NCBI GenBank assembly: GCA_905181705.1
Contig: CAJIYP010000002.1
Coordinates: 124,001-188,000, forward strand
DNA from: Cryomorphaceae bacterium BACL29 MAG-121220-bin8
GTDB lineage: Bacteria; Bacteroidota; Bacteroidia; Flavobacteriales; Flavobacteriaceae
Reading direction: 5' to 3'
Length of the DNA: 64,000 bases
Positions 1 through 22,909 of this stretch are shown here, one piece after another. The notes beneath the pieces are model-generated. The model made no database searches. It was given only the letters and a program-made list of their open reading frames with translations, and was not told where the DNA came from. How positions within the stretch are numbered: position 1 is the first letter of the stretch; each line of letters starts with the position of its first letter. Both the position numbers and the translations under genes were made by a program.

Positions 1-5
1 ATTAT

Positions 6-5838: not shown

Positions 5839-5840
5839 AT

Positions 5841-6188
5841 TCAGTAATAGAGTTTTTTAAATTTTGCTGTATTGGAACAATTCTCTACACTGTAATACGT
5901 CTTTTCATTTTTAGATTTGTTTTTCAATACATATGTTTTACAAGAATCTAGATCTACATTGCTTTGCGAAAAATCTACTTTAAATTTATTTCCTAAATTA
6001 TTTTTTTCAAGAAATGTTGTGTCTGGTTTTCCCTTAAATATCCATTGTTTTTTTTCGATATCTGCCAAAACTCTTTTATTTGGTGAATAGTTGAATGTAG
6101 CTTCTTTTTTCCCCATAAAATAAAACAGAAAAACTAAGCCTATGGAAAAGCCAACTAAATAATAAAGTAACCTTTTTACAAAGTTCAT
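5841..6188 (-). CDS. Small membrane-anchored protein, DUF4258-like
   Basis: A 115-residue protein with one N-terminal transmembrane helix (about residues 8-25, LYYLVGFSIGLVFLFYF) and a soluble tail. Length, context and the tail pattern resemble DUF4258 proteins found beside tsaE in Flavobacteriia; this family call is from memory of the pattern. The start codon overlaps the tsaE stop by four bases (ATGA), indicating translational coupling. Function is unknown. Confidence 0.75.
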   Translation of the reverse strand: MNFVKRLLYYLVGFSIGLVFLFYFMGKKEATFNYSPNKRVLADIEKKQWIFKGKPDTTFLEKNNLGNKFKVDFSQSNVDLDSCKTYVLKNKSKNEKTYYSVENCSNTAKFKKLYY

Positions 6189-6616: not shown

Positions 6617-8144
6617 TCATCACAATAAAAGGAACTAACATTTCTTCAAGAGAAACCCCCCCGTGTTGGTATGTATTTTTAAACATATTTGCATAGTTGT
6701 TATAATTATTTGAGTAAACAAAAAAAACATTTTCTTTTGCAAAAATATAACAACTACTTAAATGATTAGATGGTAACAAATATTTTTTTGGTTCATCTAA
6801 GTTTATAACTTCTTTTTTTATTGAATGAATTTGTTTGGATGTTTTATACCTTAAATTATTTGAAATTTCTTTATCTCCAGAAACAAGTGCTGCTTTATCA
6901 ACATTAATAGTACCGTGGTCAGAAGTGATAATTATTTTAAATTTTAATTCCTTTGCTTTTTTTATTATTTCATGGAGTTTTGAATTTTTATACCAACTTT
7001 TAGTTATATCTCTATATGCCTTGTCACTTGAAGCTAATTCTTTAATGAATTTCACATCTTTTTTAGCATGTGAAATTATGTCTACAAAGTTATATACTAG
7101 AACGGTCAAGTCATTTTCTTTTTCATTAACTAAACGATTGTAAAAGGATTCTCCATCTTTTGGATTTAAAATTTTATGGTATTTATATTTTATTTTTTTA
7201 CCTAGTCTAGAAAATTGTTCATTAAGTAATTCATTTTCAAACTTATTTTTCCCATCTATATCCAATTCACTAACCCAATAATTAGGATGTATTTTTTTTA
7301 TGTTTATTGGACTTAAGCCTGAAAATATAGAGTTCCTAGCATACTGAGTGGTGGTCGGTAAAATACTAGAATATAAAATATCTAATTCTACATTGTAACC
7401 TTCACTCACAAGCGGTTCAATGATCTTCCACTGATCGTATCTGAGGTTATCTATTAACACAAAAAGGATGGGTGAGTTTGATGATATTTCTGGAATAACT
7501 CTATTTTTAAATAAATTTATTGAGGAAGTGAACTCTTTATTAGAAAGTAATTTTTCGTAATTTTTTTCAATAAAATCAGCATATAGCTTATTTGCTTGTT
7601 TTTTTTGAGAAAATAAAATCTCATATACTTCTTTTTCGTCTACTTCACTTAATTCTAATTCCCAATATGATAAAACTTTATAGACCTCCATCCATTCTTC
7701 AATTGTATCACAAAAATTTATTTTATCATTAATATCTTGAAAGGAGTTTTGATAGTTAGAAATAGTTTTATTACTCATAATCTCCTTATTTCTAAATATT
7801 TTAGTCAAGGACAATAATATCTGATTAGGATTTAATGGTTTAATTAAATAATCTTTAACTTTTAAACCAATTGCGTCTTCTATTGTATCATCCTCTGAAC
7901 TCTGTGTTATCATAATAATTGGAATAGAAGAATATTCCTTGTTTATTAATTTTATTGATTCTGTTCCACTAAGACCAGGCATATTCTGATCAATTAATAT
8001 GACATCATGAGAATTTTTTTTGATAATATTAATTGCTTCAGGACCACTATTGCATGTTTCTACTTCATATCCTTTTTTATTCAAAAAAAGTATATGAGAT
8101 TTAAAATATTCTATTTCATCATCAATCCATAAAATTTTAATCAT
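6606..8144 (-). CDS. porX: PorX-type response regulator with PglZ domain
   Basis: The N-terminal receiver domain (residues 1-120) has the acidic pair D8/D9, phosphoacceptor D52 in VILIDQNMPG, and K102 in DYLIKPLNP. A helical linker precedes a C-terminal PglZ/alkaline-phosphatase-like domain (from about residue 220) with LFVLIDNLRYDQW and IITSDHGTINVD metal-site segments. In Bacteroidota PorX works with the histidine kinase PorY to control type IX secretion genes, and the PglZ domain of PorX hydrolyses nucleotide phosphodiesters. No porY or other T9SS gene is in the window. The 512-residue length is typical. Confidence 0.93.
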   Translation of the reverse strand: MIKILWIDDEIEYFKSHILFLNKKGYEVETCNSGPEAINIIKKNSHDVILIDQNMPGLSGTESIKLINKEYSSIPIIMITQSSEDDTIEDAIGLKVKDYLIKPLNPNQILLSLTKIFRNKEIMSNKTISNYQNSFQDINDKINFCDTIEEWMEVYKVLSYWELELSEVDEKEVYEILFSQKKQANKLYADFIEKNYEKLLSNKEFTSSINLFKNRVIPEISSNSPILFVLIDNLRYDQWKIIEPLVSEGYNVELDILYSSILPTTTQYARNSIFSGLSPINIKKIHPNYWVSELDIDGKNKFENELLNEQFSRLGKKIKYKYHKILNPKDGESFYNRLVNEKENDLTVLVYNFVDIISHAKKDVKFIKELASSDKAYRDITKSWYKNSKLHEIIKKAKELKFKIIITSDHGTINVDKAALVSGDKEISNNLRYKTSKQIHSIKKEVINLDEPKKYLLPSNHLSSCYIFAKENVFFVYSNNYNNYANMFKNTYQHGGVSLEEMLVPFIVMNAK

Positions 8145-8163
8145 CTACATGTTTTTATATATT

Positions 8164-8171
8164 CAAATTTA
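8164..8171 (-). promoter_or_regulatory. Putative -7 box of porX
   Basis: On the minus strand the sequence reads TAAATTTG, a match to TAnnTTTG, about 20 bases upstream of the porX ATG. No clear -33 TTG is present. Confidence 0.4.
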
Positions 8172-8240
8172 GTTAATTATAAATACTGTTTATTATAATT
8201 ATATTTTCATATAACTAAAATGTAATTAATTCATTTTTCA

Positions 8241-8248
8241 TACTTTTG
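8241..8248 (+). promoter_or_regulatory. Putative -7 box of lpxD
   Basis: TACTTTTG matches TAnnTTTG and ends only five bases before the lpxD ATG at 8254, so transcription from it would start at or almost at the start codon. Confidence 0.4.
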
Positions 8249-8253
8249 CGACG

Positions 8254-9279
8254 ATGAAATTATATGCTAATAAAATAGCTGAGATGGTTGGAGGCCTTGT
8301 CGAGGGGAATCATTTAGTATATATAAATAAGCTTTCAAAGATTGAAAATGGAGAACACGAATCATTGTCTTTTTTAGGAAATCCTAAATACAATCAATAT
8401 TTATACACATCTAAATGTTCAATAATTTTAGTTGAAAAAGATATAAAGTTGGACAAACCCGTAGACCCAACTCTTATAAGGGTGGATGATCCTAATGAAT
8501 CTTTCTCCATATTACTAAATTACTTTAGTTCCAACAAAACTCAATTAATTGGTATTGACAAGAATTCAATTATTGAGAAAAATGTAAAATACGCAGAAGA
8601 TTTATACTTAGGGTCGTATTCAATATGTAAAATAGATTCTAAGATCGGTAATAATGTTAAAATACATTCTCAAGTTTTTATTGGAGAGAATGTATTGATT
8701 GGCGACAATACAATTATTTACCCGGGTGTGAAAATTTATAATAATTCCCAAGTAGGAAGTAATTGTATAATTCATAGTGGAACTGTAATTGGATCTGATG
8801 GTTTTGGTTTTAATTTAGATAAAAATGGTAATCAAATCAAAGTTGTTCATAATGGAAACGTAGTTATTGAAGATGATGTTGAGATTGGTTCTAATTGTAC
8901 AATAGATAGAGCAACTCTAGGATCTACAATAATAAAAAAAGGAGTCAAAATGGATAACTTAATTCAAGTAGCTCATAATGTTATAATTGGAGAAAACACT
9001 GTCATAGCTGCTTTAGTTGGTATAGCTGGTTCTACAACAATTGGAAAGAATTGTATGTTGGGTGGGCAGGCTGGTGTGAGTGGCCATTTAACAATTGGAG
9101 ACAGAGTTTTGATTCAGGCTCAATCAGGTGTTTTCAAAAACATTAAGTCGGATACTTCAGTGATGGGTTCTCCTGCAATTCAATTAATGGATTACAATAA
9201 ATCATATGTTCATTTTAAAAACCTTCCTTCAATAATTAAATCTTTAGAAAAGATTTTTAAAAACAATAAAGATGTCTAA
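8254..9279 (+). CDS. lpxD: UDP-3-O-(3-hydroxyacyl)glucosamine N-acyltransferase
   Basis: Third step of lipid A synthesis: N-acylation of UDP-3-O-acylglucosamine from acyl-ACP. The N-terminal uridine-binding domain spans about residues 1-100. It is followed by a left-handed beta-helix of isoleucine-patch hexapeptide repeats, with the family signatures SDGFGF and QVAHNVIIG carrying the catalytic His. The 341-residue length is typical. The last bases overlap the start of lpxC-fabZ by eight bases, so it leads a coupled lpx gene series. Confidence 0.96.
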   Translation: MKLYANKIAEMVGGLVEGNHLVYINKLSKIENGEHESLSFLGNPKYNQYLYTSKCSIILVEKDIKLDKPVDPTLIRVDDPNESFSILLNYFSSNKTQLIGIDKNSIIEKNVKYAEDLYLGSYSICKIDSKIGNNVKIHSQVFIGENVLIGDNTIIYPGVKIYNNSQVGSNCIIHSGTVIGSDGFGFNLDKNGNQIKVVHNGNVVIEDDVEIGSNCTIDRATLGSTIIKKGVKMDNLIQVAHNVIIGENTVIAALVGIAGSTTIGKNCMLGGQAGVSGHLTIGDRVLIQAQSGVFKNIKSDTSVMGSPAIQLMDYNKSYVHFKNLPSIIKSLEKIFKNNKDV

Positions 9280-10666
9280 ACAGCAAACTATTTTAAAATC
9301 TGTTTCTTTAAAAGGCGTTGGTATTCATACAGGCAAAGAGGTTAATTTAACTTTTAAACCAGCAGATGATAACTTTGGTTATGCTTTTTGTAGAGTTGAT
9401 TTACCTGAAAAACCAATAATTGAAGCTCATATTAGTTTAGTTGTCAACACTGACAGAGGAACTAATCTTGAAAAAAATGGAATAAAGGTTAAGACTTCAG
9501 AACATGTGTTAGCTGCTCTTGTTGGAATGGAAATAGACAATGTTCTTATTGAGATTGATGCTTCTGAACCTCCAATAATGGATGGTTCTTCAAAATACTT
9601 TGTAGAGGCTTTACAAAAGGCTGGTTTGAAAGAACAAAAAGCTTTCAGGAAAGAATATGTAGTGAAGGAGGTTGTTTCATATTATGATGAAAAAACTGGG
9701 AGTGATATAACTGTTATTCCGTCAAACTCATACGAAGTTACAGCTATGGTAGATTTTGGAACCAAAATTCTAGGGACTCAGAATGCTACAATGAAAAATA
9801 TATCTCAATTTAATGAAGAATTTGCTAATGCAAGAACCTTTAGTTTTTTACATGAAATTGAAATGCTCTTAGATAATGGGTTAATAAAAGGTGGAGACTT
9901 AAACAATGCCATTGTTTATGTGGATAAAGAATTATCAAAAGAAACAATGTTCAAGCTTAAAAAGGCCTTTAATACTGATAAAATTTCAGTTCAAAGCAAC
10001 GGAATACTAGATAATCTTAATCTACATTATCCAAACGAAGCAGCCAGACATAAGCTGCTGGACGTTATAGGCGATTTAGCTCTTTTAGGTACTAGAATCA
10101 AAGGGAAGGTTATTGCTAACAAACCTGGTCATTTTGTTAACACCATGTTTGCTAAGCATTTATCGACTGTTATTAAAAATGAAAAAAGAAATATTGCTCC
10201 TCAAGTAGATTTGTCTAAACCCCCAGTTATGGACGTTAATCAGATTATGAAGACTCTTCCACATCGTCCTCCTTTTTTACTAGTTGATAAAATTTTAGAA
10301 AGTTCCAAAAACCATGTAATCGGTCTTAAAAATGTTACAATAAATGAGTATTTTTTTGAGGGACATTTTCCTGGAAAACCAATAATGCCGGGAGTATTGC
10401 AGATTGAGGCTATGGCACAAGCTGGCGGGGTTCTTATAATGAACACAGTTCCTGATCCAGAAAATTATTTAACTTTTTTTGCTAAAATTGACAATGCTAA
10501 ATTTAAATATCCTGTAGTGCCTGGTGACACATTGATATTTAAATTAGAATTATTATCTCCCATAAGAAGAGGTATTTGTCACATGAAAGGACAAGCCTTT
10601 GTTGATGGTAAATTAACTAGTGAAGCAGAGTTATTAGCGAAAATAATTAGAAAAACAGAAGCATAA
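9272..10666 (+). CDS. lpxC-fabZ: Fused UDP-3-O-acyl-GlcNAc deacetylase / 3-hydroxyacyl-ACP dehydratase
   Basis: Residues 1-300 are LpxC, the zinc-dependent committed deacetylase of lipid A synthesis, with KTSEHVLAAL, the EPPIMDGSS motif, the FLHEIEML region and HKLLDVIGDLALLG. Residues 315-464 are FabZ, with LPHRPPFLLVDKI and GHFPGKPIMPGVLQIEAMAQ, which carries the catalytic His and acid. The fusion is common in Bacteroidota. It links lipid A commitment and fatty acid dehydration, two competitors for the 3-hydroxyacyl-ACP pool. It overlaps lpxD by eight bases and abuts lpxA with no gap. Confidence 0.97.
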   Translation: MSKQQTILKSVSLKGVGIHTGKEVNLTFKPADDNFGYAFCRVDLPEKPIIEAHISLVVNTDRGTNLEKNGIKVKTSEHVLAALVGMEIDNVLIEIDASEPPIMDGSSKYFVEALQKAGLKEQKAFRKEYVVKEVVSYYDEKTGSDITVIPSNSYEVTAMVDFGTKILGTQNATMKNISQFNEEFANARTFSFLHEIEMLLDNGLIKGGDLNNAIVYVDKELSKETMFKLKKAFNTDKISVQSNGILDNLNLHYPNEAARHKLLDVIGDLALLGTRIKGKVIANKPGHFVNTMFAKHLSTVIKNEKRNIAPQVDLSKPPVMDVNQIMKTLPHRPPFLLVDKILESSKNHVIGLKNVTINEYFFEGHFPGKPIMPGVLQIEAMAQAGGVLIMNTVPDPENYLTFFAKIDNAKFKYPVVPGDTLIFKLELLSPIRRGICHMKGQAFVDGKLTSEAELLAKIIRKTEA

Positions 10667-11449
10667 ATGTATCAACCATTATCACATATTCATCCCGGTG
10701 CTAGAATAGCTAAAAATGTTGTAATTGAACCTTTTTCATCTATTGAAAGTAATGTTGTGATTGGAAAAGGAACCTGGATTGGTTCTAATGTTACAATAAT
10801 GAGTGGTGCAAGAATTGGAAAAAATTGTTCTATTTTTCCTGGGTCTGTTATTTCAGCAGTTCCTCAGGACTTAAAATTTGATGGAGAAGACACAACTGCT
10901 GTAATAGGGGATAACACTACAGTCAGAGAGTGTGTAACTATTAACAGAGGCACAGAAGATAGAAATAAAACTGTTATTGGTAAGGATTGTTTAATAATGG
11001 CCTATTCACATATTGCTCATGATTGCCTTGTTGGAAATAATTGTATTTTTTCTAATAATTCAACTTTAGCTGGTCATGTAACTGTTGGAAATCATGTGAT
11101 TTTAGCAGGAATGGTCGCTGTTCATCAGTTCTGTGCTATTGGAAATCATGCTTTTGTAGCTGGAGGTTCTTTAGTAAGAAAGGATATTCCTCCGTTTGTA
11201 AAAGCAGCTAGAGAGCCGCTTTCTTATGTAGGGATTAATTCAGTAGGATTAAGAAGAAGAGGTTTTGACAGTAAGGTTATTACTGATATTCAATCTGTTT
11301 ACAGAACATTATTTCAAAAGAAATATAACAATACTCAAGCGGTGAAAATTATTGAGGGAGAAATGAAAGCTACCAAAGAAAGAGACGAAATAATACAGTT
11401 CATACAAAATTCGCAAAGAGGAATAATGAAAGGATATTTTCAAAATTAA
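10667..11449 (+). CDS. lpxA: UDP-N-acetylglucosamine O-acyltransferase
   Basis: First step of lipid A synthesis, transferring a 3-hydroxyacyl chain from ACP to UDP-GlcNAc. The 260-residue protein is a left-handed beta-helix of hexapeptide repeats. It contains the AYSHIAHDC segment with the catalytic His, an AGMVAVHQF motif and a short C-terminal helical domain with the GLRRRGF signature. The ATG follows the lpxC-fabZ stop directly, and efp starts three bases after its stop. Confidence 0.97.
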   Translation: MYQPLSHIHPGARIAKNVVIEPFSSIESNVVIGKGTWIGSNVTIMSGARIGKNCSIFPGSVISAVPQDLKFDGEDTTAVIGDNTTVRECVTINRGTEDRNKTVIGKDCLIMAYSHIAHDCLVGNNCIFSNNSTLAGHVTVGNHVILAGMVAVHQFCAIGNHAFVAGGSLVRKDIPPFVKAAREPLSYVGINSVGLRRRGFDSKVITDIQSVYRTLFQKKYNNTQAVKIIEGEMKATKERDEIIQFIQNSQRGIMKGYFQN

Positions 11450-11452
11450 ATT

Positions 11453-12019
11453 ATGGCATCATCTTCAGATATTAGAAAAGGTTTATGTATCAATTACAAT
11501 AACGATATTTATAAAGTAATAGAGTTTTTACATGTAAAGCCAGGAAAAGGTCCCGCTTTTGTAAGAACTAAACTTAAAAGTGTCACCAACGGAAAAGTAA
11601 TAGACAATACCTTTTCTGCTGGACACAAAATAGATGAAGTTAGAGTAGAAACTAAAAGATTTCAATTTTTATATAAAGATGGTTCAACACATCATTTTAT
11701 GAACATTGATGACTATAATCAGATCACTATTGAAGCAAATTTATTAGACTCTTCACAGTTTTTGAAAGAAGGAGAGATTGTAACCGTTTTAACAAATACT
11801 GAGGATGGAAACAGTCTCTCTGTTGAAATGCCACAAAGTGTAACACTCGAAGTGACTGCAACAGAACCTGGATTGAAAGGAAATACAGCAACTAACGCAA
11901 CTAAACCAGCCACTCTTGAGACAGGTGCCAATATCAATGTCCCTTTATTTATAAATGAGGGAGATAAAATTAAAATCGACCCTGAAAAAGGATCGTATTT
12001 AGAAAGAGTTAAAAATTAA
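11453..12019 (+). CDS. efp: Translation elongation factor P
   Basis: EF-P relieves ribosome stalling at polyproline. The 188 residues fit three beta-barrel domains. The domain I loop HVKPGKGPAF carries Lys32, the position that is post-translationally modified in many bacteria, and the C-terminal domain ends with a GDKIKIDPEKGSYLERV signature. No EpmA/EpmB or EarP gene is in the window, so the modification state is unknown. It lies between lpxA and sucD in the same series. Confidence 0.96.
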   Translation: MASSSDIRKGLCINYNNDIYKVIEFLHVKPGKGPAFVRTKLKSVTNGKVIDNTFSAGHKIDEVRVETKRFQFLYKDGSTHHFMNIDDYNQITIEANLLDSSQFLKEGEIVTVLTNTEDGNSLSVEMPQSVTLEVTATEPGLKGNTATNATKPATLETGANINVPLFINEGDKIKIDPEKGSYLERVKN

Positions 12020-12027
12020 AAATATTT

Positions 12028-12900
12028 ATGAGCATATTAGTAAACAAGGATTCTAAAATTATTGTTCAAGGATTCACAGGTGGAGAAGGTACTTTTCATT
12101 CGGAACAGATGATTTCCTACGGAAGTAATATTGTTGGTGGAGTTACGCCTGGAAAAGGAGGGTCAGAGCATTTAGGAAGACCTGTTTTCAATACAGTAGC
12201 CGAAGCCGTTTTAATGGTTAATGCCAATACTTCCATAATTTTTGTTCCCGCAGGTTTTGCTGCTGATGCTATAATGGAATCGGCTGATTCTGGAATAAAA
12301 ACCATTATTGCAATTACTGAAGGAATTCCTATTACAGACATGACAAAGGTGAATCAATACATTAAAAACAAAGATTGTACCCTTATAGGTCCCAATTGTC
12401 CAGGTATTATCACACCTGAAGAAGCTAAGGTGGGTATTATGCCTGGTTTTGTATTTAAAAAAGGTAAAGTTGGTGTTGTTTCTAAATCAGGAACCCTTAC
12501 TTATGAAGCCGCTGATCAGGTAGTTAAACAAGGATTAGGAATTTCTACGGCAATTGGAATAGGGGGGGATCCAATAATTGGAACCACTACAAAAGATGCT
12601 ATTAAACTGTTTATGGAAGATTCAGAAACTGAATGTATTGTTATGATTGGGGAAATTGGAGGACAGCTTGAAACAAAAGCTGCGCTTTGGGTTAAGGAAA
12701 ACGGCAATAAAAAGCCAATTGTTGGGTTCATAGCAGGAGAAACAGCTCCCAAAGGAAGAACTATGGGTCATGCTGGTGCAATTGTCGGTGGATCAGAGGA
12801 CACTGCAGAGGCTAAGAAGAAAATTATGAGGGAATGTGGAATTCATGTTGTAGACTCACCAGCAGAAATTGGAAAGAAAGTAGCTGAAGTTATGCAATAA
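12028..12900 (+). CDS. sucD: Succinyl-CoA synthetase alpha subunit
   Basis: TCA-cycle enzyme forming succinate and a nucleoside triphosphate from succinyl-CoA. The 290-residue protein has the CoA-binding Rossmann fold (IVQGFTGGEGTFHS, GVTPGKGG), LIGPNCPGIITP, KSGTLTYE and the phosphohistidine motif MGHAGAIV. The start of the glycine motif reads GEGTFH where GKxGTFH is more usual, which is probably lineage variation. The beta subunit sucC is not in this window. It sits between efp and fabG. Confidence 0.95.
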   Translation: MSILVNKDSKIIVQGFTGGEGTFHSEQMISYGSNIVGGVTPGKGGSEHLGRPVFNTVAEAVLMVNANTSIIFVPAGFAADAIMESADSGIKTIIAITEGIPITDMTKVNQYIKNKDCTLIGPNCPGIITPEEAKVGIMPGFVFKKGKVGVVSKSGTLTYEAADQVVKQGLGISTAIGIGGDPIIGTTTKDAIKLFMEDSETECIVMIGEIGGQLETKAALWVKENGNKKPIVGFIAGETAPKGRTMGHAGAIVGGSEDTAEAKKKIMRECGIHVVDSPAEIGKKVAEVMQ

Positions 12901-12923
12901 TTAGTAATTTTAAATATTAACTA

Positions 12924-13670
12924 ATGGGTTTGTTAAAAGGAAAAACGATAATAGTAACAGGGGCCAGTAGAGGAATTGGAAAAGGTATAGCTTTGACTCT
13001 AGCTGAAAATGGAGCGAATATTGCTTTTACCTACAGTCAATCAATTGATTCTGCAAATAAACTGGTTGAAGAGATACAATCCTTAGGGGTTTTATGTAAA
13101 GCTTACCAAAGTAATGCAGCTAATTTTAATGAATCTCAATTATTGATTAAAAATATTTTAAAAGATTTTAATTCTTTTGATGTTCTTATCAATAACGTAG
13201 GTATTACTAAAGACAACTTATTAATGAGAATGAGTGAGGAGGACTTCGACAAGGTTATTGAAGTTAACTTAAAGTCAGTTTTTAACATGGTTAAGGCTTG
13301 TCAGAGAGTTTTTCTTAAAAAGAGATCTGGTAGTATTATTAATATAAGTTCAATTGTTGGAGTTAAAGGTAATGCTGGACAATCTAATTATGCTGCTTCT
13401 AAAGCTGGTATTATTGGATTTTCTAAATCAATAGCTCTAGAATTAGGTTCTAGAAACATAAGATCAAACGTAGTTGCTCCTGGTTTTATAGAAACTGAAA
13501 TGACAAACGAATTAAGTGATGAAATCGTTCAAAAGTGGATTGAAGGAATTCCTTTAAAAAGAGGAGGAAAACCGGAAGATGTTGCAAATCTTTGCTTATT
13601 TTTGTCTTCTGACCTTTCAACTTTTATAACTGGTCAAGTAATTAATGTCGATGGCGGCATGTTAACATAA
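12924..13670 (+). CDS. fabG: 3-oxoacyl-ACP reductase (SDR family)
   Basis: NADPH-dependent reduction of 3-ketoacyl-ACP in fatty acid elongation. The 248-residue classical SDR has TGASRGIGKG for cofactor binding, NNVGIT (NNVG rather than the more usual NNAG), a catalytic Ser in INISSIVG, the YAASK Tyr/Lys pair and a C-terminal ITGQVINVDGGM. Proximity to lpxC-fabZ and lpxA supports the fatty acid role over other SDR functions. Confidence 0.93.
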   Translation: MGLLKGKTIIVTGASRGIGKGIALTLAENGANIAFTYSQSIDSANKLVEEIQSLGVLCKAYQSNAANFNESQLLIKNILKDFNSFDVLINNVGITKDNLLMRMSEEDFDKVIEVNLKSVFNMVKACQRVFLKKRSGSIINISSIVGVKGNAGQSNYAASKAGIIGFSKSIALELGSRNIRSNVVAPGFIETEMTNELSDEIVQKWIEGIPLKRGGKPEDVANLCLFLSSDLSTFITGQVINVDGGMLT

Positions 13671-13690
13671 ATAATTAAAAAAAAAGAAAA

Positions 13691-14509
13691 ATGGATAGAA
13701 TTAACAAAATTGGATTACCTATTGTATTGGCTGTAATGGTTTCTTTCATTATATTAATGAAATCAGCTGTAAATATTGGCTATGGAGAAGCTGGAGTATT
13801 GTTTAAAACTTTTGGTGGTGGTGTGGTTACAGATGAAGCTCCATTAGGAGAAGGTTTTCATATTATAGCTCCTTGGAATACGGTTTATTTATACAACGTA
13901 AAACAACAAGAAGTTTTTGAAAGTCAGATGCAAGTACTTTCTTCAAATGGTTTGGAAATTTCTTTAGATGTATCAGTACTTTATCAACCAAAAGCAGATG
14001 AATTAGGTAAATTACATCAAACTAAAGGATCAAATTACCTAGATATAGTTATTGTTCCTAATATAAGAGCAGTTGCTAGAAGTGTTGTAGGTAGATATAC
14101 TCCAGAGCAACTTTACTCTACTAAAAGAGACGCTATTGAAAGTGAAATTTATGATGAATTAAAAAAAGGTGTTGAACAACAACATGTTCAGATTAATGAT
14201 GTTTTAGTTAGAGACGTTACATTACCTAACACTATTAAGCAAGCAATCGAAAGAAAACTTAGTCAAGAACAAATGTCTCTTGAATATGAGTTTAAACTTG
14301 AATCAGCTAGAAAAGAAGCTGAAAAAGTCAGAATTGATGCTCAAGGTAAGGCAGATGCTAACAGAATATTAAATTCTTCTTTAACCACTAATATTTTAAG
14401 AGATAAAGGAATTGAGGCAACAACTAAGCTTGCTGAATCTCCTAATTCAAAAGTTGTTATTATTGGAAGTGGAAAGGATGGATTGCCAATAATTTTGGGT
14501 AATCAATAA
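13691..14509 (+). CDS. Prohibitin/SPFH (band 7) family membrane protein
   Basis: A 272-residue protein with an N-terminal transmembrane anchor (about residues 9-27) followed by an SPFH/band 7 domain (about 28-190) and a charged coiled-coil region (about 190-225, KLESARKEAEKVRIDAQGKA). These proteins assemble into ring-like membrane scaffolds, often associated with FtsH-type proteases; the partner here is unknown. It is the last gene of the lpxD-to-prohibitin series. Its stop is only 16 bases from the leader peptide of the orphan attenuator. Confidence 0.92.
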   Translation: MDRINKIGLPIVLAVMVSFIILMKSAVNIGYGEAGVLFKTFGGGVVTDEAPLGEGFHIIAPWNTVYLYNVKQQEVFESQMQVLSSNGLEISLDVSVLYQPKADELGKLHQTKGSNYLDIVIVPNIRAVARSVVGRYTPEQLYSTKRDAIESEIYDELKKGVEQQHVQINDVLVRDVTLPNTIKQAIERKLSQEQMSLEYEFKLESARKEAEKVRIDAQGKADANRILNSSLTTNILRDKGIEATTKLAESPNSKVVIIGSGKDGLPIILGNQ

Positions 14510-14525
14510 TATTTTATTAAAAAAA

Positions 14526-14582
14526 ATGAAATTGACACATAATACACATCGTTATATTTACGTTCTCAAACAAGTGATGTGA
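14526..14582 (+). CDS. Orphan leader peptide, 18 aa, paralogous to the his leader
   Basis: A short ORF encoding MKLTHNTHRYIYVLKQVM, the same length as the histidine leader at 17182 and sharing its C-terminal VLK-VM-stop and the following sequence. It contains two His, two Thr, two Tyr and two Ile codons, but no run of one amino acid. It lies 16 bases after the prohibitin stop with no room for a promoter between, so it is probably on the same transcript. No plus-strand gene follows its terminator. Translation is inferred only from similarity to the his leader. Confidence 0.6.
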   Translation: MKLTHNTHRYIYVLKQVM

Positions 14583-14605
14583 TGATATTGTTATATTTAT
14601 TATAT

Positions 14606-14637
14606 AAGCCTGTTTGTTAATTCAAACGGGCTTTTTT
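14606..14637 (+). terminator. Intrinsic terminator of the orphan attenuator
   Basis: Stem AAGCCTGTTTG with CAAACGGGCTT around a TTAATT loop, followed by a T-run, with one G-T wobble. An upstream CAAACA (14567-14572) can pair with TGTTTG (14611-14616) as an antiterminator. It would also end transcripts from the prohibitin gene. Confidence 0.85.
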
Positions 14638-14638
14638 A

Positions 14639-14858
14639 ATATAAATTCAATACGAACTCATTTATAATTAATTAAGAAATCAAAGGATTTAGAATGTGTG
14701 ATATTGTTTATTTTGTTTTATTGCAAAATAAATAAACCAAAAAAATCAATTCAAAAGACTTGTAAAGATGTTAAAAAGAGTAGGGGGGTTAAAGTGAAAA
14801 GTTACTAATTTTCAAACTTAAAATCAATTGGGTAATGTAATTGTTCCTCTTTAGATTA
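14639..14858. other. Intergenic, no gene seen
   Basis: About 220 AT-rich bases between the orphan attenuator and the 3' end of the ion-channel gene. Only very short ORFs (under 15 codons) are present on the plus strand. I see no hairpin terminator, tRNA or promoter I can support. Any gene formerly controlled by the attenuator is not recognisable here. Confidence 0.6.
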
Positions 14859-16130
14859 TTACCAAAGAAAAATTGCAGTCAATATCACAAAGAAGCTGAA
14901 AATAGAATAGAAGAAAGCAAATTTACTGTCTTGAAAACTTTTGAAATGAGGAGATTCAACCGTTTGATAAAAGTATTTACCATCAATATTAATTCTTTTA
15001 AATGTACTTTGTTGTAATAGTAACACAAGGATATTAAAAACAACCATTCCGATTATCAAATTATTTATAGCATCTGCTTTATTAAATACATTTACTACGG
15101 GAAGAACTTCGTATACAAATGCACTACTACCAATTGCTCCAAATATTCCACCAACACCAAGGTTGATTCTAGATTCTAATTCTTTTAGTGGAATAAGAAA
15201 TACCATACAGGATATAAAAAAAGATAAAATTCCACCTGTAAAAATTTTAAAGAACAAAACAAGTCCTCTTCTTTCAACGTTCAATTCTACTATAAAAGCC
15301 TGAGTTACTTGTGGTCTAACAATATCTGGTGAGATTTTTATTACATCTGACGGAATGGATTTGTATTCGGATCTATATGACACGTCTTTTATTATATATC
15401 CAGCAGTAAGGTTTCTCATGTTTTTTTCAAAATTACTTGCGAATTTTAGACTTGGATTTATTTTAACAAGAGAAGTGTCGGTTGTAGTTTGAAATTCAAA
15501 CAATAATTTTTGTGTATCAAATGGATAGTCACTTAAATCCCAGTTATGATCAAACTCACTTTCTACACCTATAGAAGATTTTGAAAATTTATTATCATAA
15601 AATGAAATAGCATCATTTTCTAAAAAGTCTGGGCTGATTCTTCCTTCTTCAATTAAACCGTTCAACATAGCTCGAGATAACTCTGATGGTGTTTTTCTAA
15701 AGCTATAGTATGGCCCATCTACAGTTGTCTCTCCTTCAAGTCGAGCTTGAATCCACTCTGGATGATGGAAGTACTCTAAGGGTTCTCCATTAACTGTAGT
15801 ATACTCTAAGTCATAATCAGAATAGACGTCAAAAGTAAAGTTTGCTTTAAAACTATTGTTTTTAACATCTAAGTCTTTAATATCCTGAAAGAATAATGAA
15901 ATATCGAATTCTAGTGGCCATTCTAATGAATCTTCGTCCGTAAGTTTTATATCAGGATTATAGGGTGGGCCAAATCTTTGGTAATATCTCAAGGGTTTAT
16001 TCTCTAAAGAAGAAATAGAATCTAACTGATCTGTGTTCTGATTGTCTTGGGACATGACATTATTAATTGCTAATAAAAAACAAAATATTGTCCCTATAAT
16101 TCTTTTCAAATATTTTTTACCTCTATTCAT
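14859..16130 (-). CDS. Predicted pentameric ligand-gated ion channel (Cys-loop receptor family)
   Basis: A 423-residue protein with a signal peptide (about 1-28, ending in ...NNVMSQ), a beta-rich extracellular region to about residue 285 and four C-terminal hydrophobic segments at about 288-313, 319-343, 356-373 and 403-422. The segment DLSDYPFDTQKLLFEF (199-213) matches the conserved W-x-L-x-D-[FY]-P-F-D-x-Q loop of this family. Like other prokaryotic members it lacks the loop cysteines. The second segment (ESRINLGVGGIFGAIGSS) and the following LP turn fit M2 and the M2-M3 loop; M2 is unusually glycine-rich. The ligand, ion selectivity and physiological role are unknown. It lies between the two attenuator repeats, divergent from the secreted protein. 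Confidence 0.82.
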   Translation of the reverse strand: MNRGKKYLKRIIGTIFCFLLAINNVMSQDNQNTDQLDSISSLENKPLRYYQRFGPPYNPDIKLTDEDSLEWPLEFDISLFFQDIKDLDVKNNSFKANFTFDVYSDYDLEYTTVNGEPLEYFHHPEWIQARLEGETTVDGPYYSFRKTPSELSRAMLNGLIEEGRISPDFLENDAISFYDNKFSKSSIGVESEFDHNWDLSDYPFDTQKLLFEFQTTTDTSLVKINPSLKFASNFEKNMRNLTAGYIIKDVSYRSEYKSIPSDVIKISPDIVRPQVTQAFIVELNVERRGLVLFFKIFTGGILSFFISCMVFLIPLKELESRINLGVGGIFGAIGSSAFVYEVLPVVNVFNKADAINNLIIGMVVFNILVLLLQQSTFKRINIDGKYFYQTVESPHFKSFQDSKFAFFYSIFSFFVILTAIFLW

Positions 16131-16277
16131 ATTAGATATGCAAACATATTAATAATATTGTAACTAATGACTTTTCTGTTTTTGTAATAAATATTTAATT
16201 AAAAATAATTTAATAAAAAATTAAGTTCAATTAAGAATGTTTTATTATTTTTATAACTTAATTAATTAATATATCAT

Positions 16278-16991
16278 ATGAAAAATTTACTATTTATTTT
16301 ATTATTATTCTTTAGTATTTCTTTAAATGCTCAGGATAAATCCTATTGGACATGTTTAAATTTTGCTGTTGAAAACCAAGCAGATGGAGAGGAACTAATC
16401 AACGCTGTTGATCTTCTATTTAATTCGGAAGAAATGTCACAAATGCCATTTACGGTCTTTATGTTTGAAATGGAATTTGTTAATTCAACAACTAATTATA
16501 CTCATCAAATATGTTTTCTTGCACCTAACGCTGATTACTTTAAAGGATGGGGTAATGGTCCTGGTGAATTCGCTGAAAGCATGTTAGTGAATAAGATTTT
16601 TGAATCAGTTGCTAAACCAGTTTCTAATATTTTGGCATCACCATTAATTTTCGATCCATCTAAAGCAGGTGGATATGATTACTCTAATATATGGAGTTTT
16701 AATGTAAAGGATGTTGCAAAGTTTGCTGCTTTATCCTCAGAATTCATTGAAGCAAATTCAAACAATTTTGATGGTGTTATTGAACTTCATGAAACAATTA
16801 GTGGTGCAGAAGATGGAGTAACACATATTATGGTTGCAAGATCAAACAATTTAGGTGACTGGCTTAGAGGAAGAGAGGCAGTATTAGCTAATCCAAAATC
16901 TAGAAATTGGTTTGAAAACGCATCAAAATACAGTACTCTTATTAATTCATCTGCTGGAAAAACTTTAAAAGTATACCCAGGATCCAATTAA
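16278..16991 (+). CDS. Secreted protein of unknown function with two similar halves
   Basis: A 237-residue protein with a clear signal peptide (MKNLLFILLLFFSISLNAQ, cleavage near residue 19-20). The mature part appears to hold two related units. One starts near residue 23 (YWTCLNFAVENQADG) with EMEF, TTNYTHQICF and NADYFKGW; the other starts near 137 (IWSFNVKDVAKFA) with IELHETI, GVTHIMVARSNNLGDWLRG. This pattern resembles a tandem alpha/beta (dimeric ferredoxin-like) fold, but that is inference. It is divergent from the ion channel (147-base gap) and is followed by a strong terminator. Confidence 0.8.
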   Translation: MKNLLFILLLFFSISLNAQDKSYWTCLNFAVENQADGEELINAVDLLFNSEEMSQMPFTVFMFEMEFVNSTTNYTHQICFLAPNADYFKGWGNGPGEFAESMLVNKIFESVAKPVSNILASPLIFDPSKAGGYDYSNIWSFNVKDVAKFAALSSEFIEANSNNFDGVIELHETISGAEDGVTHIMVARSNNLGDWLRGREAVLANPKSRNWFENASKYSTLINSSAGKTLKVYPGSN

Positions 16992-17030
16992 TATGTCAGA
17001 AAATTAAACTGATAAATATATTAAAACAAA

Positions 17031-17058
17031 AAACCCTCTAATATCAGAGGGTTTTTTA
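17031..17058 (+). terminator. Intrinsic terminator of the secreted-protein gene
   Basis: Stem AACCCTCT with AGAGGGTT around a six-base loop, followed by a run of six T, about 40 bases after the stop codon of the 237-residue protein. Confidence 0.88.
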
Positions 17059-17156
17059 TTTTCTTGAATACTTTCAAGACACAAAACTATTTTGTGATTT
17101 TAACTGGAAATAAATGAATAAAAACATTTACTCTAGGAAATCAATAAAATTTTTAT

Positions 17157-17164
17157 AATATTTG
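17157..17164 (+). promoter_or_regulatory. Possible -7 box of the his operon leader
   Basis: AATATTTG differs by one base from TAnnTTTG and lies 18 bases before the leader peptide ATG, downstream of the preceding terminator. The placement is sensible, but the match is imperfect. Confidence 0.3.
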
Positions 17165-17181
17165 AAGTATATTTTTTATTA

Positions 17182-17238
17182 ATGAAATTTAACCGTAATA
17201 ACCATCATCATTTCAATGTCCTCAAACGAGTGATGTGA
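17182..17238 (+). CDS. hisL: Histidine operon leader peptide
   Basis: Encodes MKFNRNNHHHFNVLKRVM, with three consecutive CAT His codons at 17203-17211. It ends 22 bases before the terminator hairpin that precedes hisG. Stalling at the His codons would leave CAAACG (17223-17228) free to pair with CGTTTG (17266-17271) in the terminator 5' arm. A ribosome reaching the TGA at 17236-17238 would cover CAAACG and let the terminator form. This is the classic logic of translation-coupled attenuation. The gene symbol is by function, not by homology to the enterobacterial hisL. Confidence 0.85.
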   Translation: MKFNRNNHHHFNVLKRVM

Positions 17239-17260
17239 TGATATTGTTATATTATTATAT

Positions 17261-17294
17261 AAGCCCGTTTGTTAATTCAAACGGGTTTTTTTTT
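17261..17294 (+). terminator. his operon attenuator terminator
   Basis: Stem AAGCCCGTTTG with CAAACGGGTTT around a TTAATT loop, followed by a nine-base T-run, ending 17 bases before the hisG ATG. The 5' arm CGTTTG can instead pair with the upstream CAAACG inside the leader peptide gene. Confidence 0.9.
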
Positions 17295-17311
17295 ATAAAA
17301 AAAATCAATAA

Positions 17312-18169
17312 ATGAAAAAACTAAAAATAGCAATTCAGAAATCAGGAAGACTCAATGCGGATTCTTTAAACCTTTTGAACAAATGTGGAATTAAAATTGA
17401 TAACTATAAGGATCAATTAATGGCCTCGGCTAGAAATTTTCCTATTGAGGTTTATTTTTTAAGAAACAGTGATATTCCAAAATATATTAACGATGGTGTA
17501 GTTGATTTAGCAATAATTGGCGAAAATTTATTAATTGAAAAAGATTTTGAAATTGATGTTATAGAAAATTTAGGATTTTCTAAATGTAAGGTATCAATTG
17601 CAGTTCCAAAAGAAGTTAAATTTAATTCTATTTCTTATCTAAATAATCTTAAAATTGCTACATCCTATCCAAATACGCTTAAAAAATTTTTAAATAAAAA
17701 CAATATTATTGCGGATATCCATGTTATTAACGGATCAGTTGAGATAGCTCCAAACATTGGATTATCAGATGCTATATGTGATATAGTTTCAAGTGGGAGT
17801 ACACTTTATAAAAATAACTTAAAAGAAGTATTTGTAATTCATGAATCACAAGCTGTATTGGCTGGAAACAAACATATGTTAGAATCTAATAAATATTTGC
17901 TAGACAAATTTTTGTTTAGAGTTAGAGCTGTTTTAAAAGCCAAAGAGTCTAAGTACATTCTTTTAAACGCTCCAAATGATAAAATAAATGCTATTTCAGA
18001 AATACTTCCTGTTTTAAAGAGTCCAACTGTTCTTCCTTTAAATAAAGAGGGTTGGAGCTCTTTACACTCAGTTATCAATGAAGATACTTTTTGGGAAGTG
18101 ATCGATAAAATTAAAGATGCTGGAGCTGAAGATATATTAGTGTGTCCAATTGAAAAAATGGTTTTATAA
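17312..18169 (+). CDS. hisG: ATP phosphoribosyltransferase (long form)
   Basis: First committed step of histidine synthesis: ATP + PRPP to phosphoribosyl-ATP. The 285-residue length and C-terminal extension indicate the long HisG with its own regulatory domain for histidine feedback, so no HisZ is needed. Visible segments include IAIQKSGRL, VDLAIIGENLL, KIATSYPN, the PRPP-binding GSVEIAPNIGLSDAICDIVSSGSTL and the C-terminal GAEDILVCPIEKM. The stop overlaps the hisD start by one base (TAATG). It is the first structural gene after the attenuator. Confidence 0.96.
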   Translation: MKKLKIAIQKSGRLNADSLNLLNKCGIKIDNYKDQLMASARNFPIEVYFLRNSDIPKYINDGVVDLAIIGENLLIEKDFEIDVIENLGFSKCKVSIAVPKEVKFNSISYLNNLKIATSYPNTLKKFLNKNNIIADIHVINGSVEIAPNIGLSDAICDIVSSGSTLYKNNLKEVFVIHESQAVLAGNKHMLESNKYLLDKFLFRVRAVLKAKESKYILLNAPNDKINAISEILPVLKSPTVLPLNKEGWSSLHSVINEDTFWEVIDKIKDAGAEDILVCPIEKMVL

Positions 18170-19455
18170 TGAATAAAATATTTAATCCAGATAAAAGCTT
18201 ATGGACCTCAATGGTTAAACGACCAGTGTATAGTCTTGATTCTGTAAAAGACGTTGTAGATGAAATTTTTACAAATATTGAATTATATGGAGACAAATCC
18301 TTAATACAATACACGAAAAAATTCGACAACGTTGACTTGAATAATTTAAAGGTTAGCTCTGAAAAAATTAATAATTCAGAAAATGATATTGATAAGGATT
18401 TAAAAGAGTCTATCAATGTAGCTTTTAATAACATTTATAAATTTCACAAGAATCAGGTTGTTGATTTTAATAAAATTGAAACTACACCTGGAGTTTTATG
18501 TTGGCAAGAAAAAAGGGCTATTGAAAATGTTGGCTTGTATATTCCAGGTGGAACAGCTCCTTTGTTTTCATCAGTTTTAATGTTAGCTATTCCTGCTATG
18601 ATAGCTAAATGTAAAAACATTGTTCTTTGTTCTCCTCCTGATAAAAGTGGTGAACTTCATCCTGCTATCCTGTATTGTGCTAAACTTTGTAAAGTGGATA
18701 CGGTTATTTGTGTTGGTGGAGCTCAATCAATAGCGGCTATGAGTATTGGTACAGAGACTGTTCCTAAAGTAAACAAGATATTTGGACCAGGAAATCAGTT
18801 TGTTACCTATGCAAAATTAAAATCGATCAATTTTAATACAGCAATCGATATGCCTGCAGGTCCAAGTGAATTACTAGTGTTAGCAGACAAGTATGCTAAC
18901 CCTAGTTATATAGCATCAGATTTACTCTCTCAAGCAGAGCACGGACCTGATAGTCAGGTTATATTTGTAAGTCTTTCAAAATCCTTAATAAATGAAGTTG
19001 AAAAATGTATAAATGATCAAGTTAAAAGCCTAGATAGAATAGATTTTATTAATAAATCAATTTCAAATTCTAAACTTGTGTTTTTTGATGATAAAACAAA
19101 GGCAATTGATTTCATTAATTTATATGCACCAGAGCATTATATAATTAATGTTCAAGACGAATCTTTCTTTATTGATAATATAGTAAGTGCTGGATCTGTA
19201 TTTATTGGTAATTACACACCTGAAAGCGCTGGTGATTACGCTTCAGGAACAAATCACACTCTGCCAACAAATGGAAATGCTAAACAGTACAGTGGTGTTA
19301 ATTTAGATAGTTTTCAAAAGACAATCACTTTTCAGAAAATATCAAAAACAGGTTTATTGAATATTTCAAAAACAGTTGAAACCATGGCTCAAGCAGAAGG
19401 TTTACAGGCTCATAAAAATGCAGTATCAATAAGGGTTAGTGATTTAAAAAGTTAA
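18169..19455 (+). CDS. hisD: Histidinol dehydrogenase
   Basis: Zinc- and NAD-dependent oxidation of histidinol to histidine in two steps, the last reaction of the pathway. The 428 residues are typical. Signatures are NVGLYIPGGTAPLFSSV, the GPGNQFVTYAK loop, DMPAGPSE, QAEHGPDSQ with zinc ligands Gln and His, YAPEHYII and ESAGDYASGTNHTLPT. It is coupled to hisG by a one-base overlap, and hisC follows after a single base. Confidence 0.97.
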   Translation: MNKIFNPDKSLWTSMVKRPVYSLDSVKDVVDEIFTNIELYGDKSLIQYTKKFDNVDLNNLKVSSEKINNSENDIDKDLKESINVAFNNIYKFHKNQVVDFNKIETTPGVLCWQEKRAIENVGLYIPGGTAPLFSSVLMLAIPAMIAKCKNIVLCSPPDKSGELHPAILYCAKLCKVDTVICVGGAQSIAAMSIGTETVPKVNKIFGPGNQFVTYAKLKSINFNTAIDMPAGPSELLVLADKYANPSYIASDLLSQAEHGPDSQVIFVSLSKSLINEVEKCINDQVKSLDRIDFINKSISNSKLVFFDDKTKAIDFINLYAPEHYIINVQDESFFIDNIVSAGSVFIGNYTPESAGDYASGTNHTLPTNGNAKQYSGVNLDSFQKTITFQKISKTGLLNISKTVETMAQAEGLQAHKNAVSIRVSDLKS

Positions 19456-19456
19456 T

Positions 19457-20494
19457 ATGAAAATAGATGCTCTAGTAAGAGATAATGTTAAAAATATGTC
19501 TTCGTATTCATCTGCTAGAGATGAGCACAAGAATGGATATGATGAAAACTTAATTTATTTAGACGCAAATGAATCTCCTTTTGATAATGGAATTAATAGA
19601 TACCCAGATAATAAACATAATGATTTAAAGACAGTTGTTTCTAAAATTAAAAATGTAGGTGTAAATCAAGTTGTTTTTGGTAACGGGACAGATGAAATTC
19701 TTGACTTAATTGTTAGAGTTTTTTGTGATCCAAACCAAGATAAGATAATTACTCTACCTCCAACTTATGGAATGTACGATGTGATAGCCAAAACTAATAG
19801 TGTTGAGAATATTGAAATTCCATTAAAAAGTGATTTTTCAATTGATAGAGATAAAATACTAAGTTTAAAAGAATATAACACTAAGGTTTTATTCTTGTGC
19901 TCACCAAATAATCCCACAGGAAATTCATTTGATATTAATGTTTTAAGTGGTTTAATTAAAGACTTTAAGGGTGTTGTTGTTATTGATGAGGCTTATATAG
20001 ATTTTTCATCTCAAAAGTCTTTAATTAACCTTATTGATAAGTATGAAAATTTAATAATTACTCAAACTATGTCTAAGGCTTATGGAATGGCAGGTATTAG
20101 ATTGGGGATGGGATTTTCAAACGAAAAAACAATCAGTTACATAAATAAAATCAAACCTCCATATAATGTAAATATACTTACTAAAAATAAAGCTTTAGAG
20201 GAGCTGAAAAAAGTTAATGCAATTAAAAGTAATGTCAATTCTGTTTTAAATCAGAGAAAGAAATTGATTTCTTCTTTAGAAAAATTTGATTTTGTTGAAA
20301 AAACATACCAATCTGATGCGAATTTCATTCTAGTTAAAGTGGATAATGCTGATTTAAGATACAATCAGTTATTAAAAAAGGGTATTGTAGTTCGAAACAG
20401 AACGAATCAATATTTGTGTCAAAACTGTTTAAGAATTACACTTGGAACGAAGGATGAAAATAAAATATTAATAAAAACATTAAATGAATTATGA
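19457..20494 (+). CDS. hisC: Histidinol-phosphate aminotransferase
   Basis: PLP-dependent transamination of imidazole acetol-phosphate to histidinol phosphate. The 345-residue fold-type I enzyme has YLDANESPF at the N-terminus, CSPNNPTGN, VIDEAYIDF and the PLP-lysine motif MSKAYGMAGIRLG. The arginine motif near the C-terminus is LRITLGT. The start overlaps nothing upstream (one base gap). The 3' end overlaps hisB by four bases (ATGA). Confidence 0.96.
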   Translation: MKIDALVRDNVKNMSSYSSARDEHKNGYDENLIYLDANESPFDNGINRYPDNKHNDLKTVVSKIKNVGVNQVVFGNGTDEILDLIVRVFCDPNQDKIITLPPTYGMYDVIAKTNSVENIEIPLKSDFSIDRDKILSLKEYNTKVLFLCSPNNPTGNSFDINVLSGLIKDFKGVVVIDEAYIDFSSQKSLINLIDKYENLIITQTMSKAYGMAGIRLGMGFSNEKTISYINKIKPPYNVNILTKNKALEELKKVNAIKSNVNSVLNQRKKLISSLEKFDFVEKTYQSDANFILVKVDNADLRYNQLLKKGIVVRNRTNQYLCQNCLRITLGTKDENKILIKTLNEL

Positions 20495-21603
20495 AAAAGA
20501 TTCTTTTTATAGATAGAGATGGAACTTTGGTTGAAGAACCTAAACTGGATAAGCAATTAGATAGTTTTGAGAAATTATCTTTTTTTCCAGGTGTATTTAA
20601 GTATTTAAATAAAATTAGTGAAGAGTTGGATTTTAAACTGGTTATGGTTACTAATCAAGACGGTTTAGGAACAGACTCTTTTCCTGAGGAAACCTTTTGG
20701 CCTGTTCAAAATTTTATTATTAATTCATTTAAAAATGAAGAGGTTAGATTTTTTAAAACACACATTGATAAAAGTTTTGAAAACGAGAACTCTAATTATA
20801 GAAAACCAAGAACTGGAATGTTAACAGAATACATTGAAGATGCTAATATTGATATAAAGAATTCTTTTATCATTGGAGACAGGCAATCTGATATGCAACT
20901 GGCAAAGAACTTGAATTGTTCAGGGATTCTTTACAATGGCACAGAACTTAATGATTCATTAAATGATGTTGTTAAACTTAAAACAGATTCTTGGAAATCT
21001 GTTTACGAGTATTTGAGCGGATTAAACAGGTATTCTTTTTTTAAAAGAAAAACTAACGAAACAAATATTGAGATTGAACTTGATTTAGATGGTACTGGTA
21101 AAAGTAATATAGATACTGGTCTTTCTTTTTTTGATCATATGCTTGATCAGCTTTCTAAACATTCACTTGTAGATTTAAATATCAAAGTTGATGGTGATTT
21201 AAATGTTGATGAGCATCACACTATAGAGGATACTGCTATTGCTCTTGGAGAATCGTTTTCCGCGATGCTAGGAAAGAAAATAGGAATCGAAAGATATGCC
21301 TTTTTACTTCCTATGGACGACTGTTTAACTCAAGTGGCAATAGATTTTGGTGGAAGAAGTTGGCTGGTTTGGGACGCTGAATTTAAAAGAGAGAAAATAG
21401 GGGATGTGCCAACTGAAATGTTTTATCACTTTTTTAAATCGTTCTGTGACGGAGCTAAACTAAATGCTAATATTAAAGTTGAAGGAACTAATGAGCACCA
21501 TAAAATAGAATCTATTTTCAAGGCTTTCGCTAAGTGTATTAAAAGTGCAGTAAGTAAAAATCAAGATAAATTAATATTGCCTTCCACTAAAGGAGTTTTA
21601 TAA
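20491..21603 (+). CDS. hisB: Bifunctional histidinol-phosphatase / imidazoleglycerol-phosphate dehydratase
   Basis: Two pathway steps in one 370-residue protein. Residues 1-170 are a HAD phosphatase with the nucleophile motif DRDGTL (D8, D10) and IGDRQSDMQLA. Residues 185-370 are the dehydratase with FFDHMLDQLSKH, DEHHTIEDTAIALGE and EGTNEHHKIESIFKAFA metal-binding motifs. The phosphatase domain lacks the cysteines of the structural zinc loop of E. coli HisB (THIDKSFENENSNYRKP has no Cys). From memory this is normal in Bacteroidota, so it is not a defect. It overlaps hisC by four bases and hisH by one. Confidence 0.96.
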   Translation: MKKILFIDRDGTLVEEPKLDKQLDSFEKLSFFPGVFKYLNKISEELDFKLVMVTNQDGLGTDSFPEETFWPVQNFIINSFKNEEVRFFKTHIDKSFENENSNYRKPRTGMLTEYIEDANIDIKNSFIIGDRQSDMQLAKNLNCSGILYNGTELNDSLNDVVKLKTDSWKSVYEYLSGLNRYSFFKRKTNETNIEIELDLDGTGKSNIDTGLSFFDHMLDQLSKHSLVDLNIKVDGDLNVDEHHTIEDTAIALGESFSAMLGKKIGIERYAFLLPMDDCLTQVAIDFGGRSWLVWDAEFKREKIGDVPTEMFYHFFKSFCDGAKLNANIKVEGTNEHHKIESIFKAFAKCIKSAVSKNQDKLILPSTKGVL

Positions 21604-22187
21604 TGAGAATAGCAATAATTGATTATGGCGCTGGAAACATTCAAAGTGTGAAATATGCTTTGAAAAGACTTGGTTGTAAAGGAATTTTAACTTCAGATAA
21701 AGAAGTGATTTCAGGTTCAGATAAAGTTATTTTTCCAGGTGTAGGGCAGGCTAGTAGTGCAATGAAAAAACTTAAATCTGAAAGTTTGAATGTGCTTATT
21801 CCTAATTTAAAACAACCAGTTTTAGGTATATGTTTAGGCATGCAATTAATGTGTGATTTTTCTGATGAAGGAAACACCGAGTGTCTAAAAATATTTAACT
21901 CTAAAGTCAAAAAGTTTGACAACTCTTTAAAGGTTCCTCAAATTGGATGGAATACTGTTTTTGATTTAAAAACCAGTCTGTTTGATTCAATCAGTGAAAA
22001 GGAATACATGTATTTAGTACACAGTTATTTTGTCCCCGTTTCCCCTGAAACTATTGCAACTTCTAAATACGGAATTGATTACAGTACAGCAATTAAAAAA
22101 AATAATTTTACAGGAGTTCAGTTTCACCCAGAAAAGAGTGGAGGCAAAGGGGAAATTATACTTAAAAATTTTATAACTAATCCATAA
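21603..22187 (+). CDS. hisH: Imidazole glycerol phosphate synthase, glutaminase subunit
   Basis: Class I glutamine amidotransferase that supplies ammonia to HisF. The 194-residue protein has the nucleophile motif GICLGMQLM (C77), [11 protein letters not shown] at the N-terminus, YLVHSYFV and the catalytic His/Glu in QFHPEKS. It starts on the last base of hisB (one-base overlap) and hisA starts on its last base. The partner hisF is two genes downstream. Confidence 0.97.
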
Positions 22188-22909
22188 TGAGAATAATTCC
22201 AGCCATTGATATTATTGAAGGAAAGTGTGTAAGACTATCACAAGGTGATTATAGTAAAAAAACTATATATAGCTCTAGTCCATTTGAAATAGCTCAGAGA
22301 TTTGAAGATCATGGGATTAATTATCTTCATTTAGTTGATCTAGACGGCGCTAAGTCAAGTAAGATTATAAATCATAAGATTTTAGAGCAAATAGCTTTAA
22401 AAACTGCCTTAAATGTTGATTTTGGTGGTGGATTAAAATCAATTGAAGATGTGAGAGTGGCATTTGAATCAGGCGCATGTCAGGTTACTCTAGGTAGTAT
22501 TGCTGTTTCAAGCCCTGAAACGTTTGTTGAGTTGTTTGATAAATATGGAGCAGATAAGATTATTTTAGGTGCTGATTTTTTAGATAATAAGATTAAAACC
22601 AATGGATGGCTTAATGATTCGGGAAATGATCTTATGGATTTTTTAAATTATCACATCTTAAAAGGGTTAAAGTATATTATTCCAACTGATATTTCTAAAG
22701 ACGGAATGCTTAAAGGTCCTTCAATAGAAACTTATAAAAATATCTTGAAATCATATAAAGATATTTGTTTAATTGCTTCAGGTGGAATCTCAAATATTAA
22801 AGATTTAGAAGATTTAAAAGATGCGGGTTGTGAGGGTGCTATTCTTGGAAAAGCGATTTATGAAAACAAGATAGAATTGAAAAGTTTATTGAATTTTATA
22901 GAAAAGTAA
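22187..22909 (+). CDS. hisA: ProFAR isomerase
   Basis: Isomerises ProFAR to PRFAR through an Amadori rearrangement. The 240-residue TIM barrel has [18 protein letters not shown] (catalytic Asp8), [14 protein letters not shown] and ILGADF around residue 127 with the second catalytic Asp, and phosphate-binding ASGGISN and [10 protein letters not shown]. It is related to HisF by ancient duplication. The stop and start codons overlap hisH and hisF by one base each. Confidence 0.97.

Follow-up and report, generated by a model that had tools for sequence, protein, structure and literature searches.

Why should an attenuator of the histidine type stand behind a prohibitin gene, with no gene of its own to switch? 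In the window, by which the whole analysed stretch of 64,000 nucleotides is meant, the last gene before this orphan element is a plus-strand ORF for a prohibitin/SPFH protein (13691-14509, Pfam Band_7, E 9.3e-34). By its protein, the closest named records are uncultured marine Flavobacteriaceae/Cryomorphaceae MAGs, e.g. MED-G65, BACL29/FRAM18_bin143 and AG-319-A09. A spacer of 16 bases (14510-14525) without the promoter-like motif TATTTG/TATTCG separates the prohibitin stop codon from a plus-strand leader ORF of 18 codons, MKLTHNTHRYIYVLKQVM plus stop (14526-14582). The antiterminator arm CAAACA (14567-14572) can pair with TGTTTG at 14611-14616, and on the 3' side of the leader ORF come a GTGATGTGATGATATTG stretch and then an intrinsic terminator (14606-14633) with 11 pairs, a 6-nt loop and a T tail. 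The leader encodes two His, two Thr and two Tyr, as originally predicted, and one Ile where two had been counted. Its two His codons are separated, versus three His codons in the similar his-linked leader of the related genome G019, MKFTHNIHRHLYFLKRVM.

The 24-mer AGTGATGTGATGATATTGTTATAT was found at exactly two sites of the window when up to 3 mismatches were allowed, both sites having none, and at no site in 100 shuffles. At up to 2 mismatches, GTGATGTGATGATATTG occurred in the same two places only throughout the genome (incomplete, 1.84 Mb in 4 contigs). A covariance model was built from 11 attenuators of the genus, 10 of which precede hisG while one (G009) ends its contig, both known orphans being excluded. 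It gave 102.3 bits to the orphan (14526-14640) and 134.7 bits to the copy in front of the present his operon (17182-17295), so that the 24-mer search and the model scores agree with the predicted places of the two copies. The orphan fold was better than those of 200 out of 200 shuffles (z -3.55), and all six of its six antiterminator pairs are possible. At the gathering score, Rfam (15) yielded no match in the window, RF00514 His_leader included; a permissive Rfam scan of 14400-17400 yielded 36 hits, none of which reached the gathering score of its own family, and none of the sub-threshold hits over 14526-14640 was His_leader. A weak match to the his attenuator model is also present on the minus strand at 52525-52638 (20.5 bits).

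Downstream of the orphan, about 220 nt lead to a convergent gene, and no his gene follows directly. No plus-strand ORF of at least 80 aa begins before 16278, which bears out the claim that no plus-strand gene follows. The convergent gene (14859-16130, minus strand) is an ORF of 423 aa not assigned to a family, with no Pfam match and no PDB match (phmmer); it may encode a pLGIC. It is followed by gene X (16278-16991, plus strand), an ORF without Pfam match which, by eye, resembles the gene that follows prohibitin in L126. After gene X lies a terminator-like palindrome (17023-17062) that is readable in both directions. The slot from prohibitin to the cold-shock gene (13691-24872 and the same slot of the relatives) is variable in this genus, with the his operon present or absent. 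The convergent gene, gene X and sulfatase-like genes come and go in it, the names other than his and cold-shock being tentative.

The prohibitin 3' side was compared among 22 genomes of the genus, where most relatives are fragmented MAGs. The same element lies there with hisG next in eight of them (G004, G005, G006, G010, G011, G013, G017 and G019), and G009 has the attenuator behind prohibitin right at a contig end, with hisG at the end of another contig. Two genomes, the window's own and G020, have prohibitin followed by an orphan; five have prohibitin without an attenuator behind it (G003, G007, G008, G016 and G018); the contigs of three (G001, G012 and G015) break off in or close to prohibitin; and three (G002, G014 and G021) gave no prohibitin match. 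The genus model produced 13 hits above 100 bits, namely 10 before hisG, one at a contig end and the two orphans. Weaker hits of this model (R1) in the genus, below 40 bits, were taken for ordinary terminators, except for a 37-bit partial hit at the beginning of contig C66 of G020, and a hisG match in G001, 34% identical, was rejected as a his operon. The order prohibitin-attenuator-hisG is also found outside the genus, e.g. in L127, L128, L130, L133 and L134. Since the relatives have this order here, the orphan occupies the place where their his operon starts.

The second orphan occupies the same place. In G020, prohibitin and the orphan attenuator are followed by about 500 bases of wreckage and then by the convergent gene. 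In this wreckage nhmmer recognized the remains of two his genes, the start of a broken hisG (E 2.1e-16) and the end of a broken hisIE (E 1.9e-18). The intact hisG of G020 is on another contig (C66), which begins inside an attenuator and may be a contamination of the bin. A similar case is G315 (L209), a more distant member of the same family, in which the attenuator precedes a hisG start of 34 aligned residues that runs into a hisA piece, and a broken hisF. In the corresponding gap of the window (14638-14858), nhmmer reported no his remnant, and the matches from blastn were short and weak, with E 0.007 for the top two. The best fitting of these, 31 A-rich bases at 14726-14756 against a hisG start (E 0.007), was not counted. 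As the window gap is without a significant his remnant, we infer the loss there from the relatives and from the cases of G020 and G315. The relic option of the original prediction is upheld by the position of the site at the relatives' his operon start and by the second orphan with its hisG and hisIE wreckage.

From the family, 299 genomes were scanned with a family model (R2, built from 9 sequences), and 155 of the 299 gave a match with an E value of 1e-8 or lower. Among the 150 matches listed, 148 have hisG behind them, either as a located hisG directly after the attenuator (84) or as a hisG found by tblastn within 1.1-1.4 kb behind it (64). The two exceptions among the 150 are G315 and G181. 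The latter bears, on contig C126 (L207), a second attenuator that across some 210 columns, upstream sequence included, is almost the same as the his-linked one of that genome, and no hisG was found in the 405 bases from there to the contig end.

The window also contains a present-day set of his genes, which has had a separate history. The plus-strand operon hisGDCBHAF-IE (17312-24254) was assigned from its ORFs and from Pfam (HisG, Histidinol_dh, IGPD, His_biosynth in two genes, and PRA-CH/PRA-PH); Pfam names hisG, hisD, hisB, hisA, hisF and hisIE, and gives only the general Aminotran_1_2 and GATase at the places of hisC and hisH. It is preceded by its own attenuator (17182-17295, plus strand), with leader MKFNRNNHHHFNVLKRVM and the same architecture as the orphan. 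Upstream of this attenuator, 17132-17164 (plus strand) comprises the 3' tail of a foreign prohibitin gene, TCTAGGAAATCAATAA (16 bases, 17132-17147), and a spacer with the promoter-like TATAATATTTG. The segment matches G006 and G004 at 97% over 33 nt and G010 at 100% over 31 nt (E 1.6e-10 to 5.5e-10). It has no match in positions 1-16900 of the window at E 0.01, and the window's own prohibitin ends differently. The prohibitin tail at 17132-17147 appears to mark a recombination joint.

Comparison with G006 pointed in the same direction. Proteins of the window and G006 are 98% (hisG) and 96% (hisD) identical; at the DNA level hisGD is 94.6% identical, versus 83.3% for prohibitin. The hisGD tree joins the window and G006 at 100/100, while the prohibitin data (20 rows, the partial G012 being left out) reject this pairing with p-AU 0.0085. 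For a gene 12 kb away (36245-37936), G006 is 72% identical and other matches in the genus are 67-77%; for 30896-33043 the nearest genome is G019 (88%), and G006 has no close match. Given the different histories of hisGD and prohibitin together with the foreign prohibitin tail, the slot looks like a hybrid of two alleles. In G003 (L101, upstream of 2467) a more degraded prohibitin-like tail precedes the attenuator, and his is there also located after the convergent gene. The best match of this tail had E 9e-5, and 0 and 1 of 500 block shuffles were as good in two comparisons; it did not match G003's own prohibitin tail.

On this evidence, the orphan is very probably the leftover attenuator of a his operon that once started after prohibitin and was lost, in a slot that now looks hybrid. 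The his operon would formerly have begun right behind the prohibitin gene, and upon its loss the leader and terminator would have remained at the old address. The left part of the slot, from prohibitin and the relic attenuator to the convergent gene and gene X, would derive from an allele whose his site is dead, and the right part, with the prohibitin tail, the other attenuator and the his operon, from a lineage like that of G006. The relic shows no promoter of its own and has no gene left to control. In other words, loss of the his genes at this spot most likely explains why the switch is found by itself after a gene unrelated to it, and another set with its own switch is now nearby. The relic reading is supported, and the element is real; in all likelihood it is a remnant of gene loss and regain, not a regulator of a new type. 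Counting against this reading are the lack of a significant his remnant in the window gap, the weak attenuator tree, the slight decay of the orphan, the imperfect pattern of the promoter-like motif (in the G020 orphan and in G003) and the fragmentation of most of the relatives' MAGs.

The alternative that survives best is that the attenuator alone was duplicated within the genome, which would make the orphan a true paralogue, as the original prediction called it. Such a copy seems to exist in G181, where the second, nearly identical attenuator has no hisG before the contig end. The attenuator tree is weak and groups the orphans with G019 and G011 (support 80/74), and sisterhood of the orphan and the window's own his copy is not rejected (p-AU 0.22). 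However, the orphan lies exactly at the place of the relatives' his attenuator, its difference from G019 is 0.127 per site as against 0.155 from the his copy of the window, and G020 displays the relic route complete with wreckage. The word paralogue is probably wrong, because the orphan's grouping, though weak, is with leaders of another type, and the copy next to hisG came with a his operon of different history. We regard a duplication within the genome as unlikely.

Far less probable is that the orphan still responds to histidine, with stalling at its two His codons lifting termination and allowing antisense readthrough over 14859-16130. The leader frame, the antiterminator pairing and the terminator are all still possible, and one antiterminator pair has been kept by a double change. 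As predicted, A14572/T14611 replace G17228/C17266, which leaves a T-G wobble at this point of the terminator. This coordinated change had been read as a sign of selection on the alternative pairing, an argument that fails because the pair is broken in the second orphan and because the changes are G to A and C to T in a window of 29% GC. Among the 13 genus attenuators the 11 his-linked copies all have G-C at the pair 14572/14611; the window orphan has A-U and the G020 orphan U.C, which does not pair. The other five antiterminator pairs are invariant. One double change in one sequence is not covariation, and the observed covariation score was reached by 32 of 500 shuffles. Moreover, random AT-biased substitution was simulated from four possible ancestors, counting pairs that were double-changed and still Watson-Crick. 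The antiterminator double change arose by chance in 4.9-12.2% of runs when the whole element was considered and in 0.6-5.1% for the core; in any of the four helices, such a change arose in 22-50% and 2-16% of runs, respectively. AT-rich DNA favours changes from G to A and from C to T, which by themselves turn a G-C pair into A-T, so the A/T pair is weak evidence for selection at best.

A live switch is also opposed by the missing promoter-like motif, by the two His codons as against three in the G019 leader, and by the five genus genomes that have no attenuator after prohibitin. The motif search found TATTTG/TATTCG, a putative promoter element by comparison with Bacteroidetes promoters, in 10 of the 11 his-linked copies (G003 being the exception) and in neither of the two orphans; the G020 orphan has a near miss, TAAACTTG. 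We consequently give very little probability to a histidine-sensitive terminator of the lipid A/prohibitin transcript that would control antisense readthrough and whose antiterminator would have been kept by compensatory change. A trans-acting RNA or peptide, a role reported for a Sinorhizobium trp leader (PMC7298713), is favoured only by the sequence shared with the his-linked copy and is extremely improbable, as a promoter-like motif is missing and orphans above 100 bits occur in just 2 of 22 genus genomes. For neither the regulatory nor the trans-acting role proposed earlier was positive evidence found.

Under the preferred reading, that of a leftover his attenuator, the terminator deserves separate attention. 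It is fully paired in 13 of 13 genus sequences, both orphans included, with predicted energies of -15.0 kcal/mol in the window orphan, -14.8 in the window's his copy and -13.0 in the G020 orphan. No second terminator-like site was found from 14509 up to the convergent gene. As the terminator is intact and the only such site there, its simplest present role would be to end the upstream transcript, and the relic may now terminate the transcript that runs from lpx to prohibitin. The orphan as a whole has decayed modestly. Of the 78 columns that are constant in ten his-linked copies, five are broken in the window orphan and six in the G020 orphan, compared with 0-4 in the his-linked copies when left out singly and 13 in the outlier G003; the 18-codon frame is still open. 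This modest decay fits either a recent loss or a kept terminator.

His attenuators of the E. coli type act by leader-peptide transcription attenuation. The element described here resembles them in that it has a short leader ORF containing His codons, an antiterminator, an intrinsic terminator and a possible pause hairpin, and relatives of the window carry it before hisG. The window orphan differs in that no gene stands behind it, its His codons are only two and lie apart, and a promoter-like motif is missing; it is also unmatched by the Rfam His_leader. A literature search found no paper on his or other leader-peptide attenuators in Bacteroidetes/Flavobacteria and none on regained his operons, which does not establish the absence of either. 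The survey points to a family-wide his attenuator that has no match in Rfam 15 at the gathering score in the window. With the prohibitin-hisG attenuator of the Flavobacteriaceae, the window element shares position and architecture, but it is orphaned. The decayed operons of G020 in the genus and G315 in the family are like it in that an attenuator stands before broken his genes, whereas the window keeps no significant his wreckage after its orphan. The lasting interest of the locus lies in this record of operon loss and replacement. It would offer a readable account of how marine Flavobacteriaceae with small genomes can lose a biosynthetic operon and acquire it again: the attenuator would mark the old address, another species of the genus shows the wreckage, and the 16-base foreign tail would mark the joint of the new operon.
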